A stretch of DNA of 64,000 bases from Trichodelitschia bisporula. Its lineage: Eukaryota > Ascomycota > Dothideomycetes > Phaeotrichales > Phaeotrichaceae. The stretch lies in contig ML996704.1 of assembly GCA_010356995.1 (NCBI GenBank), forward strand, positions 702,461-766,460. Direction: 5' to 3'. The position numbers and the translations under genes are program-made. Positions 5,464 to 42,078 of this stretch are shown here, piece after piece; positions within the stretch are counted from its first letter, which is position 1; the number at the start of each line of letters is the position of its first letter. Under the pieces are notes generated by a model. It ran no database searches. It saw nothing but the letters and a program-made list of their open reading frames with translations, and was not told where the DNA came from.

Positions 5464-6758
5464 GACGGTGGTTGTGGGGTGGAGGGTGAGGGTGGGGTGC
5501 GGGGCGAGCGCGGTGATAAGGTTTATGGGCATTCGATTCCGTGGACGGATGTAATTAATTCATTCGTGCAGCACCCGGCCGGCGCGGCTAGACTCCGGCC
5601 GCTACGAGCTGGAGAATCGGGATGCTGCTACCGTCGGACGGGCAGCAAGAGCGCGATTTGGTGCGTATAGTTGGCGGTATATAGATCGTATATAGACCGT
5701 TGACCGGGGGGTGATGGGTGGGTAGGCAATTTGCGCAACGTGCCGGTGAGGTGTGGGGGCACATGACGTTCACAATGGTTGCACGGATGGAATGCTATGG
5801 TTCAGTGTTAGAATATGGCGGAGGAGGGAGTGGGCGGCTGGGAATGCTGGTGCTCGTACGCTGGGTTGGGGCCGTATGGGGCCCGGGTGCGGGAGATAAG
5901 CTTGAGAAAGCGGTTGACCGCTGGGCGGGATATTGGGCCAAGATGACGTTGCTGGTTCGGATGCAATTTTGAACGGTGCCTGGCTTACTGTGCTCATTGA
6001 GTGAGTGGGACTGTCGCGATTTCAGATCGGGGATGGGTGGTTATAGGGCTTGAGGCGGACCTCGGCTGTACCTGACTGGGCCTACACACCATCGCGACGA
6101 CCACCGTCAATGGCATTGTGGAGGAAGCGCGCGAGAGGAAGAGTTTGGGCTAATGGAAATTCACACACCCACGTGCCATCCTGATGGTGTGGGGGCTAAA
6201 TGGGACAGATTGGGATGACGACAACGCTCAACGCTCAATCCGATAAACGCCGATGTTGGGAACAGAGGGAAACTGGGTATATGATCCACCGTTAAAAGGA
6301 AATGAGAACGCCACGCTAATTGGGACATGAGGAACAAAGACGCCACGCTAAGCCGGACATGAGAGACAAATCATATGCACGTTGTTCCACCGGGAGCGTC
6401 GTATTTGTGTTTGTGCAGTGGGGTGTGCTCGGAACGGGCTCCGAGGCCGTAGGCGGGGGTGTTAGGCGAGTGGGTGTAGTGATAAAGGGCCGGAGTGGAA
6501 TGGAGTAGCGGAGGATGAGATGAGTGGTAATTAGGCAGTGAGGGCGATGGTCAGAGGGTGTTGGACTTGTTTGGGTGCAACTCTGCGCCAAAATTCAAGG
6601 GCCATCAGACGGAAATCGACCGCGGGGCGTATTTCGGCATGCGATCCGCTACCACCATCATCAGACGGCAAGTGGCACTCGATGCTTAAGCGGAACGAAA
6701 ATCCTCGTCCTCGTCGGCGGCGCCGTCGTCGTAACCGAAGCCCTGGACCTGCAACGCA
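5464..6758. other. intergenic, about 1.3 kb
   Basis: It holds the promoter of the aldo-keto reductase gene (right side) and the 3' flank of the small BTB gene. A 24-bp imperfect direct repeat occurs at 6308-6363. No coding sequence is supported. Confidence 0.5.
6308..6363. repeat. imperfect direct repeat, 24 bp x 2
   Basis: Two copies of ACGCCACGCTAAnnnGGACATGAG start at 6308 and 6340, 32 bp apart, differing only in the three central bases. They could be regulator half-sites or a small duplication. Confidence 0.75.
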
Positions 6759-7243
6759 TTAACCACTTGCAGCAACCCGCTCCCTCACGACTGACTGCAC
6801 ATTGAGCACGCTCTGCGCCCAGTTCGGATGCAGCGTCTCCAGCGTAACATCCACCACCGCACGCATAAAGTCCTGATCCCCCAGCTGCTGGCCCAGCTGA
6901 TACGTCTTGCCCAGCAGACTCGTGCAGTCCGTAGTGTATTGCCTAACGGACTTGATGCCGCGCGCGCCTAGGTACAGTCGGTTGGAGTACACCCAGTGGG
7001 CGTAGGCGTTGAAGACGTTGGGGGCGACGTTGGGGAGGCGGATGATGGTGGTGCCTGTACCGCCTTTGCTTTGGAAGAAGGGGGAGTGGGAGGTGAGGAG
7101 GCGGGCGTGGAGGGTGAAGTCGCGGGTGCCTTCGACGGTGGATTCACCGGTGCGGATGATGAGGAAGTCGAGGCCGTGGCTGGGGGGGGGGAGTTGGCTT
7201 ACTCGGGGGCGTCTTCGAAGTGGCGGAGTGTGTTGACGGCCAT
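6759..7243 (-). CDS. small BTB domain protein
   Basis: The protein of about 153 aa is little more than a BTB fold: DFLIIRTGES, then FTLHARLLTSHSPFF, IIRLPNVAPNVFNAYAHWVY, shown here as IIRLPNVAPNVF and YAHWVYSNRLYL, followed by helices with LGKTYQLGQQLGDQDF. It resembles fungal BTB proteins but is unrelated in detail to the one at 1490-2450. The only ATG that leads into the domain (7241-7243) is followed after 41 nt by an in-frame stop unless a 23-nt GT-AG segment (7180-7202) is removed. That segment has GTAAGC and a run of ten C before AG. It is far shorter than the other introns here, so it may reflect an assembly error in the homopolymer, a lesion, or an exceptional intron. Confidence 0.65.
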
Positions 7244-38082: not shown

Positions 38083-39719
38083 GGTGGCTTGGAGGGGAAG
38101 GGGATCGGCGGTAGAAAGACAGCATGAAGATTGCGGGCCAGAGGGCACGGCATTAATGGCTTAAGTGAACGTGTATGCGGCAATGGTTGTGCCCATGTGA
38201 GCTAGAACTAAATGTTCGTATTCTCGGGTGGGGGAAGGGCGGTAATGACGGGGTGAGTTGACTAGCAGGGGAAAGACAGATGGTGGTAAAAGAAGGACGG
38301 ATAGTGGATGGAGAGAGGTTCAAAACATCGAGGCGGACAAATGCGGATGGAACGACATCGTCCCTAGTCCGACTGTGGCATAGAAGATGTGATGAGGATT
38401 CAGACGTTATCGGGACCCCGGGGAGTGAAGCGGGGGAGGGTGGTGAGGAAAGGGAGGACAGGAAACTACCAAGATACAGCCCCACGCAGTGAGCTCCGAA
38501 GGTGTGGACGGCGTCAGACATCGCCACCACCATCATCTCGACTTGGGCAATGCCCGTGGAGCATCCAGGGCAGCCAGTCGTCTGCCCGGTTGGCCTGTTA
38601 GCGGGGAACGGCAGAGTATCAGTCATCACGATTGGGACGCCATCGTCGAAACCAAGCGACAGTCGGCCAAACTCCCGCCGAGGGGGGGAACGGCGCGGGA
38701 ACGCCTGCGGAGGGCTTTTTCCAGGTTACCTCCACAGGGCTGAAAATGGCTGGCGGACTGTTGAAGTAAAGACAAAAAAGCAGGCAGGACATCTAGGCCC
38801 GTGGTCCAGGAGCTAGAGCGTAGAGTTGCCGTCACCAACATGCGTGTTTGACAGCAATGGCTTATGCAGTCCCACAATGCTGATCTTTGTCAATTGAAGC
38901 CCGGCGGGCAGGAGTTGGCGACACGGAGGGCTGGTGGAGACAAGACGCGATTCTGCAGAAGCAGCACAGAGATGCCGTCGCCTCGCGGAGGGCGTCCGGG
39001 CCTATCGGCTGCGTTGCTGGGGTCTGGGCAGGTTCGTGTCTGGCACGCCGTGGCTTGGACACCATCGGGGAGATCGGCATTGTCTGCTACGGATTGAGAT
39101 ACACGGTAGCGGGTGACCAATCGGCTTGCCAGGTTTGAAGGGCACCAGCCAGTTGGAGGCGGCAGAGAGATGACGGCGTTGTGAGGATCTGGATATTAAA
39201 CTTTCGCATTGCGGCATGCCGTTGTTTAGGGGTGATGAGATGGATAGCGCCCGGTAGTGCTCGCAGTGTGCAGTAGCGAAAGAGCATAAATCAATGACAT
39301 CAGACCGTGGATACACGAAAGAGGAAGGTATTTATTGGAACTCTCACATAATCACTTCTGCCGACCAAACGGCGTTCCTCCCGTACTCCAATACAGACAC
39401 CTCTGCAACATATCCCAGTACGATGTATGTACCCCTCAGATAGGCAATGCGGAGAAGAGGTAAAACGACGGGGAGCTTGTTGGCGATGGTGGTGGAGCAT
39501 GTTTATTTTGAGTGCGAAGTCTAGCGTAGTCAAAAGCCATGCAAAAGGGCTTGTCCCAGCCCCTGGCCGGCATCGGATCCGTGCTGAAACTTGGCAAGCA
39601 TATCAAAAAGCACGACCCCGGCATCCCCCTTTTCGAGTTGCACAAGTCAGCCTCGTTCGCGACGCCATCCTCGCATTGGCTGACGACGTCAGAGACATCG
39701 CAGAACACACGGGCGTAAC
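38083..39719. other. intergenic, 1.6 kb
   Basis: P450 promoter at the left, then DNA without supported gene up to the left end of the TIR element. Open frames on both strands are short and mutually overlapping. Confidence 0.5.
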
Positions 39720-39917
39720 CCCTACGGTACATTTTTACTGTAATTCGGGAAATTTTAAACTGCAATACAGACGCTGTGTTGTATGTGTCATATCCTTCAC
39801 TTAGAACTGCCTTTTTTCAACTGCAATACGGACGCTCGTATATCACGTATTGCAGCTCAAAACATGCCCGATTGCAGTTCAAAATTTGCACGATTGCAGT
39901 TCGAAAGTTGGGGACCT

Positions 39918-39932
39918 ACTAGAAAAACAGGT
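39918..39932 (+). repeat. internal inverted repeat, left arm anchor
   Basis: ACTAGAAAAACAGGT here is exactly complementary to 40668-40682. Further matching blocks (ACGTTT, TTACATC, GATCAGC, ATGTCAAAAGATG) continue inward in both arms, giving a fold-back of about 350 bp per arm. Confidence 0.8.
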
Positions 39933-40667
39933 CAACGTTTATTACATCAACAGCCCGCAGATCAGCCAATCACGCGATAGAAACGCACGTTAACGTCAAA
40001 AACGCAAAGGCAATCAGAAAGTCTACTCCCATCAAAAAGTCATCAAAAGAGTTATTCGAAAGGCGCCGAGACCAATGTCAAAAGATGTGACTCATCAGGA
40101 CGATGCGATAGCCAAATTATCGCAATTTTGTATTAAGGTTTGGTGCGTGCATCCCGTGTTGAAGTTTTGACCTCAGATTTTGGTGGGGTAAGAGCGCCAA
40201 GATTTCCCTGCACGCCACAGCCACGCTAAAGCCACGCGCAGGGATATAATCATCATCCTAACCCTAATCAGCTAATGCCAACCCTAATTTAGCCTTAACG
40301 TACTAAACTAACCCTAACTTTAACTGGATGCAGCAACTCAGACCTCGGCGCCAAGCAGCTGGCTTGTGACGTGCGGATAGCCTTGGCGCCAATACAGCCA
40401 CACGAGCCGCACGTGCAGCCACGCCAAACTTCAAAACGCGATGCACGCCTCAAGAGTAATCAAAAACACTCGTTCTTAATGAAAATCGACTTGCCTTGAT
40501 GAGCTGCATCTTTTGACATCAATCTTGGTGCTTTTTGGATGATTCTTTTGGCACCAAATTTTGATGAGGCGTGGCTGATGCGACAACCTTGCGATTGGCT
40601 CAAAAGTCTTGACTTCCTTGCGTGTCATTAGCTGATCACAGCCCGCCTGTCGATGTAACAAACGTCT

Positions 40668-40682
40668 ACCTGTTTTTCTAGT
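40668..40682 (-). repeat. internal inverted repeat, right arm anchor
   Basis: Reverse complement of 39918-39932. It marks the right arm of the fold-back core of the TIR element. Confidence 0.8.
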
Positions 40683-40833
40683 AACTCCCGAAAGTTGCAC
40701 TCAAAACATGCGCAATTGCAGTTCAAAAGTTGCTCAAATGCAGTAATCCGCGTCCCTATACGCTTTCTGTAACCGTATTAGCATGGGCTCGCGTGAGTAG
40801 ATAGGATAAGGGATAGGAGACTTACCGGAGACG

Positions 40834-40983
40834 CGACGAGAGGCGAGACGAGACAAGAGAGACGAGACGAGACGAGACGAGACGAGACGAGACAAGAGAG
40901 ACGAGATGAGACGGGACGAGACAAGAGAGACGAGAGAGACGAGAGAGACGAGAGAGACGAGAGAGACGAGACGAGAGAGAGAA
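40834..40983. repeat. GACGAG/GAGAGAC microsatellite
   Basis: Tandem GACGA pentamers and GAGAGAC-type units cover about 150 bp inside the TIR element. Confidence 0.95.
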
Positions 40984-41606
40984 GAAATTTATCAACTTTC
41001 GCGTTCCGAGGAGAAAAAGTGGTTGCCGGGATTTTTGGTTAATTTGGCGTGCATAGCGGCAACGAGTTATTTTGGTATGCCGAGCCACACCTTGGTGTGG
41101 CTAGGCATGTAAACAACAAACAGCTTCAGACGCGCGCTGTGAGATGATTGCGTAGTTGCAGTAGAAAAAGTTACTGATTACACAAGTTTTTGATGCGCAT
41201 TGTTGTATATTCATGATTGCAGTAGAAAACGGGCGGGATTGCAGTAATCCCTACGTAAAAAGTGTCAGATGACGGTTAGGTTTGGATTGCAGTGTGGAAA
41301 TTACATGATTGCGTGGGGGTTTTGGCGTGATTACAGTAAGCACTAACAAAAACCGTCGGATTGCAGTAAAAATGTCCCGTAGGGAACTCAGCACGCTCAG
41401 CACGCCCTCCGACACGCCTTCAACAGACAATGGGGATGCTGCAAAGCGTGGCTTGCCTGTGTAACCGAACGATCATCGTTTAACATGTCCTCCCCGAAGC
41501 CGCGCCCGCCGTGATTCTGTGATATCAGTCCCTCGCTATCTCCATCTCTCCCACGTCATTCATTCTTGCCCAGTATCCAGACCAACATCCCCATACCGCC
41601 GCCAAA

Positions 41607-42078
41607 ATGCGCTTCGCAACACTCCTCGCCCTCCCCATCCTCGCCTTCGCGGCCCCCCAACCACTCACCGAAATCGCCCGCACACCCGAATCCTTCTCCT
41701 CTCTCGAAACGCGTTCCCTCGAAGAGCGCGCAACCTACGACTGCGGAGTCAACGGCGGAACGCCGTACTGCTGCCAAGCGACATTCGCGGGCGACCTGCC
41801 GCCCATTATCTCGCTCGCGCATCTAACCGGCTTCCCGCTGAACCCGAATGATGTGAACTGCTTGCTGCGTAAGTGAGGTTCGTTGTTGAGAGGAGCACGT
41901 GCTGACTGAGAAGCTACGGCAGCGGATCCGTCGGCGCCGACATGTCCGGGCAGTGTTATGTGCTGCCAGGTTGCTGGTGTGGTGAGTTGCGCTCAGTATG
42001 AGCAGTAGAGAGATGCTAATGGTGACTGTACAGCCGTTGGTCGCGGCCCTGTACTGCCAGGCGCCGAAGTTCGCGTAG
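41607..42078 (+). CDS. class I-type hydrophobin
   Basis: Exons 41607-41868, 41923-41981 and 42034-42078 encode 121 aa; introns are 54 and 52 nt. A signal peptide (MRFATLLALPILAFAAPQP) is followed by a spacer with an LETRSLEER dibasic-like stretch. The eight cysteines follow the hydrophobin order C-CC-C-C-CC-C with gaps of 7, 28, 9, 5 and 12 residues, inside class I ranges. Such proteins are secreted and self-assemble at air-water interfaces to coat hyphae and spores. The gene lies 222 bp from the right end of the TIR element, which may influence its promoter. The last exon is only 15 codons. Confidence 0.9.

Follow-up and report, generated by a model that had tools for sequence, protein, structure and literature searches.

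Introduction

Subterminal repeats serve as protein-binding sites in DNA transposons of the CACTA type. In PMC2613891, the soybean CACTA element Tgmt* is described with 13-bp terminal inverted repeats (TIRs), a 3-bp target duplication and asymmetric subterminal repeats; the subterminal repeats of CACTA elements are bound by a protein of the element, and those of Spm/En are recognised by TNPA. Fungal EnSpm elements end in CAC..GTG and make 3-bp target duplications, most of the wider clade ending in CA..TG, whereas the IS3EU elements of rust fungi have TAYGG..CCRTA termini, TIRs longer than 30 bp and 6-bp target duplications, according to PMC12730594. Styx of Zymoseptoria, which is active in a fungus, has a 36-bp TIR and a 6-bp target duplication, and its transposase is said to share its origin with that of IS3EU (PMC10853768). 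For the PIF/Harbinger (PHIS) groups with 3-bp duplications, PMC4482050 gives TWA, ANT, CWG or TNA as targets, and A or G as the usual first base of PIF TIRs. PMC10045372 assigns a 4-bp duplication and CC..GG termini to piggyBac and, as a rule, 6-bp duplications to IS3EU, and states that Zator also makes 3-bp duplications.

Here we describe a TIR element, E1, in the fungus Trichodelitschia bisporula, together with a shorter sister copy, E2, on another contig. The two fully follow none of the reported superfamily rules compared (EnSpm, IS3EU and PHIS). E1 lies in a stretch of 64,000 nucleotides (C18:702461-766460, hereafter the window), ~23 kb from the end of contig C18, in a genome assembly of 25.65 Mb and 30 contigs.

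Anatomy of E1 and its nested insert

The features of the locus are listed below by their positions in the window.

39717-39719, no strand: AAC to the left of E1, one half of a putative 3-bp target duplication, read directly from the sequence
39720-41384, no strand: outer TIR element E1, delimited by TIRs, AAC flanks and octamers; 1665 bp with the nested insert, ~900 bp without it
39720-39747, forward strand: left TIR of E1, tip CCCTACGG, 25/28 against the right end
39737-39827, reverse strand: left octamers ACTGYAAT, starting at 39737 (one mismatch, in the TIR), 39759 (22 bp on) and 39820
39849-39914, forward strand: 22-bp tandem units ATTGCAGYTCRAAA..., starting at 39849, 39871 and 39893
39917-39918, no strand: TA, left side of the insert, flank sequence
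39919-40681, no strand: nested 763-bp insert, ends CTAGAAAAACAGGT / ACCTGTTTTTCTAG mirrored, with foldback arms
40682-40683, no strand: TA, right side of the insert, flank sequence
40693-40758, forward strand: 22-bp units beyond the insert, starting at 40693 (degenerate), 40715 and 40737
40830-40990, no strand: GAGAC/GAGAGAGAC minisatellite within the outer element, bounds approximate
41155-41367, forward strand: right octamers with at most one mismatch, at 41155, 41216, 41238, 41286, 41330 and 41360 (the last in the right TIR)
41357-41384, reverse strand: right TIR of E1, 25/28 against the left end
41385-41387, no strand: AAC to the right of E1, other half of that putative 3-bp target duplication, read directly from the sequence

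The two ends of E1 (39720-39747 and 41357-41384) pair without gaps at 25 of 28 positions. The inverted repeats noticed in a first-pass annotation of this DNA are real, but its count of 26 of 29 is not, position 29 being mismatched. When this stretch was simulated 2000 times with a first-order model, the top end-box match was 19/28. Between 30001 and 50000, only two distinct inverted pairs of at least 25/28 at distances of 100-3000 bp appeared (six overlapping windows), namely the TIRs of E1 and one pair of the nested insert. The direct AAC reported to abut the ends is present on both sides, with GTAAC as the left and AACTC as the right outer flank, and no more than these 3 bp are repeated directly at the border. 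This repeat agrees with the poor fit to Tc1 (TA) and hAT (8-bp) elements remarked on earlier, and hAT was rejected for want of an 8-bp duplication.

The interval 39720-41384 had been annotated as one TIR element; it does hold a TIR element, but not a single unit, as an outer element of ~900 bp encloses the TA-flanked insert. The insert accounts for 46% of the interval and interrupts the 22-bp array of E1. Both a TA duplication and inverted ends, as expected of Tc1/mariner elements, were found in it, and no domain was recognised among those of its frames that were scanned. Its interior aligns with C15:195900-196256 at 68-75% identity in both orientations, and with a region of C5 at 71-74%, where the relative is 831 bp long (C5:465284-466114) and has CTAG ends adjoining TA. 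No exact octamer occurs in either relative. Because of the TA on both sides and of relatives lying in stretches that lack an exact octamer, we read the insert, as the best interpretation, as belonging to a Tc1/mariner-type family of its own, separate from the outer element. The C15 relative of the insert core is bounded by inverted repeats of 207-213 bp that are 95-96% identical (C15:195181-196878) and look younger than the insert's own arms. Mid-insert, at 40258-40317, there are three AACCCTAA-like telomere-type motifs, with similar runs in the C15 relative.

The outer element has a G+C content of 0.46 (window, 0.57). In E1, the TpA/ApT ratio is 0.92 (window, 0.65) and that of CpA+TpG over ApC+GpT is 0.95 (window, 1.21), so that the composition of the outer element leans towards RIP-like decay, albeit the octamers confound these ratios. 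A short hairpin lies within E1 at 41077-41108, with 15-nt arms that are 93% complementary and a 2-nt loop. A body-search match at C2:1325064 spans the GAGAC minisatellite only and was discarded as a relative. Outside the element, a small frame ~220 bp past E1 (41607-41876) has a signal-like start and cysteines, and had no Pfam match at E 0.1; we take it to resemble a hydrophobin. At ~36300, a short masked stretch (X) falls within a long frame, presumably that of a cytochrome P450.

Subterminal octamers

The octamer ATTGCAGT occurs nine times exactly in E1 against twice elsewhere in the window, which bears out the earlier observation that such octamers recur subterminally at both ends. When one mismatch was allowed, 14 of the 49 occurrences in the window fell in E1. 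Simulated E1 sequences contained the octamer 0.08 times on average and twice at most. Each TIR of E1 carries one octamer, 17 bases from the tip, the left one with one mismatch; with respect to their ends, the two are oriented alike. Taking exact and one-mismatch octamers together, five neighbouring pairs are spaced by 22 bp (39737-39759, 39849-39871, 39871-39893, 40715-40737 and 41216-41238), and two pairs in E1 by 61 bp. The string ATTGCAGTNNAAAA was found five times genome-wide, always within E1; since its reversed control was also found three times, it is the clustering in E1 that matters, not the number. Two internal octamer-pair modules (40737-40762 and 41238-41255) continue into CCCTA..CG-like letters and resemble repeated pseudo-ends in E1.

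A sister copy on C20

Two copies of TTGCAGT within 35 bp of each other occur at 22 places genome-wide (reversed control, 13). Only five of these pairs are spaced by 20-22 bp; E1 holds two of them, and the other three lie at C20:547292-547360. It was through these octamer pairs alone that we discovered E2, a 218-bp element at C20:547199-547416 with four exact octamers (simulated mean, 0.006) at a spacing of 20-21 bp. With ends and octamer iterations like those of E1, E2 is a second copy of the kind that the first-pass annotation had proposed to look for elsewhere in the genome. The left end of E2 reads CCCTACGGGAAGTTTTAGCTGTGAT, with the tip CCCTACGG 92 bp before the first octamer; the right end is a mirror image of it at 19/25. 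The right edge matches the left end of E1, the query of this comparison, at 21/25. Of the four ends that the two elements have, three begin with CCCTACGG and the remaining one, the right tip of E2, with CGATACGG; 16 of 28 columns are invariant over the four. The alignment of the two copies comprises the ends and the octamer units, not a common body.

An end pattern with 16 fixed letters had 12 matches genome-wide, four without mismatch, which are the four ends, and then eight at two mismatches (reversed control, 7). As the pattern was made from those four ends, the four perfect matches are not independent evidence, whereas the discovery of E2 by octamer pairs is. The flanks of E2 are TAC on the left and AAC on the right, a duplication of two letters out of three, against the perfect AAC/AAC of E1; the length of the duplication thus rests mainly on E1. 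E1 and E2 both have AAC as their right flank and a left flank that ends in AC. Judged from these letters, the flanks would fit a preferred target AAC with one base changed in E2, albeit two copies are not proof. A tandem array of diverged ~0.7-kb repeats adjoins E2 on C20, with 66-78% identity in the longer alignments.

Searches for further copies, empty sites and a transposase

All counts from the DNA searches are lower bounds. The E1-based end pattern gave three matches genome-wide with up to three mismatches, and four when C/T and G/A were tolerated; a pattern with 15 fixed letters gave 20 at two mismatches (control, 47). The body of E1 and the E1-based ends missed E2, and the body of E2 missed E1, whereas the 15- and 16-letter patterns used letters from both. 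As the body searches missed each other's copy, copies equally diverged would be missed as well. Matches outside E1 and E2 fall at 26 distinct places (1, 2, 16 and 8, with one repeat). None of these places has a convincing mirrored end within ~1.5 kb on either side, by a partner test that is weak for reverse-strand matches and for partners more than 1.5 kb away, misses the pair of E1 itself and scores the right end of E2 at only 16. TTGCAGT was never found more than once within the same ~1.5 kb on each side.

There are no further close end matches in the assembly, and genome-wide searches by ends, octamers and bodies, which could miss strongly diverged copies, yielded neither a third copy nor a partner with these ends. 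Two candidates were rejected. A further end at C4:1495844 agrees with the left end of E1 at 20/25, which is about chance in 51 Mb of both strands (estimate, 0.6), and a site at C10:155501, which has another weak end at a distance of 1.2 kb, scored 16 and 17 of 25, the two ends pairing at only 12/28.

The first-pass annotation had also proposed a search for empty sites, and flank queries found none in the genome for E1 or E2. The joined flanks of E1 returned only its own flanks; those of E2 returned its own flanks and, for the right flank, a single tandem paralogue. A local comparison with E2's tandem paralogues gave no clean empty site, one of the three comparisons being of the query with itself.

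In other collections, the exact end pattern had no match in viral contigs and three in genome contigs, all from Flavobacterium, as CCCTACGGNACATTTTTACTG within TAGTCCCTACGGGAC (positions 7132-7152, 5973-5993 and 6024-6044 of 8-kb loci). By eye, this stretch looks like a bacterial palindromic repeat, and the loci contain 0, 1 and 0 octamers per 8 kb, so that we set these matches aside as probably coincidental. The ends of E1, searched as text in the literature, returned no transposon paper by title. Searches on families with a 3-bp duplication and subterminal motifs found nothing, from which we claim no absence from print.

Nine of the 25 frames of at least 45 aa that overlap the E1 interval were scanned against Pfam and none reached the cut-off, in line with the earlier statement that no transposase frame is present. 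Weak matches below the cut-off in two of the nine (three families, E 0.012-0.096) were taken as chance. Genome-wide, DDE_Tnp_4 (PF13359) had no match at E 0.001 in six frames with introns ignored, while one of 14 control genomes was positive; Plavaka PF18759 had none, and likewise none in the control genomes, which makes this negative uninformative. A full-length autonomous partner elsewhere, which the element had been supposed to need, did not emerge from the end-pattern searches of the genome. With no partner detected and no transposase linked to the family, the two elements have the look of orphaned relics.

Discussion

E1 is probably an old non-autonomous cut-and-paste DNA transposon whose family has few copies, E2 being its one, shorter sister, and which later received a nested Tc1/mariner-type insertion. 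As a find, it is an ordinary orphan relic, a two-copy non-autonomous TIR element of which one copy was broken by a Tc1-type insert. We infer that the octamers are transposase sites, that the target duplication is 3 bp long, that movement was by cut and paste, and that the partner was lost. A transposase supplied by another element would bind the ATTGCAGT octamers, one in each TIR and the others in subterminal iterations that often have a 22-bp step. This transposase would then pair both ends and cut at the CCCTACGG tips, and the excised DNA would insert at a 3-bp target, AAC in the case of E1. The assignment of the tip as cleavage site and of the octamers as binding sites is suggested by analogy with CACTA elements. 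A Tc1/mariner-type foldback element probably entered a TA in E1 later, splitting the 22-bp array.

If this reading is correct, a compact genome gains a small two-copy TIR family, and CNNTACGGNANNTTTTNNCTGNNAT combined with ATTGCAGT at ~22-bp steps becomes the search key for an autonomous parent in other fungi. If the 3-bp duplication is genuine, an empty E1 allele would read ...GGGCGTAAC|TCAGCACG..., with one AAC. Taken alone, E1 is a relic, and old transposons nested in one another are to be expected in the genomes of fungi. It is unlikely that E1 and E2 stand for an undescribed lineage, which would be characterised by CCC..GGG termini, a preference for AAC, iterated binding units of 20-22 bp and an autonomous member surviving in other fungi.

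Comparison with known families

We assign E1 and E2 to no superfamily, a CACTA/EnSpm-like layout being our best single guess. E1 could possibly be a deletion derivative of an element of the CACTA/EnSpm lineage (CMC), a proposal that we make tentatively and that would entail a 3-bp duplication, a short TIR tip and subterminal motifs bound by a separate protein. Like the non-autonomous elements of this lineage, E1 has a short TIR tip and would have a 3-bp duplication (AAC), and iterated subterminal motifs are present in both E1 and E2. Nevertheless, its termini are CCC..GGG, not CAC..GTG or CA..TG, and its TIRs measure 28 bp against 13 bp.

We regard it as improbable that E1 is instead an IS3EU-type relic whose true ends, TACGG..CCGTA, lie inside CCC/GGG, the AAC matching by chance. 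TACGG sits 3 bases inside the mirrored end in all four ends, its letters T4-A5-C6-G7-G8 being invariant while letters 2-3 vary in one of them, and E1 is alike to IS3EU and Styx in this core near the end and in a TIR of ~30 bp. However, the six bases outside TACGG and CCGTA are AACCCC and GGGAAC in E1, and TACCCC and TCGAAC in E2; no 6-bp repeat lies outside TACGG/CCGTA or CCC/GGG in either copy, and the CCC of E1, outside TACGG, is itself mirrored by GGG.

The idea that E1 is a PIF/Harbinger (PHIS) miniature element is very unlikely. The putative 3-bp duplication of E1, its small non-autonomous size and its apparently non-coding nature recall PIF/Harbinger MITEs, but its target AAC is none of TWA, ANT, CWG and TNA, its first base is C, and the genome has no DDE_Tnp_4 match. 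That E1 is no transposon at all but a unique inverted duplication abutting AAC by chance is barely credible, as the existence of E2 on another contig, with similar ends and octamer iterations and with flanks that do not match the E1 locus, argues against it, even though only two copies and no empty site were found in the genome.

The target duplication of piggyBac is TTAA; E1 shares with piggyBac the CC..GG termini but is flanked by AAC, and this family was rejected. The non-autonomous transposon with one sister copy that we favour for E1 has its nearest, if partial, counterpart in the CACTA/EnSpm layout, and Tc1/mariner foldback MITEs compare with the nested insert only, which is alike to them in its TA flanks, its CTAG.. 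inverted ends and its foldback.
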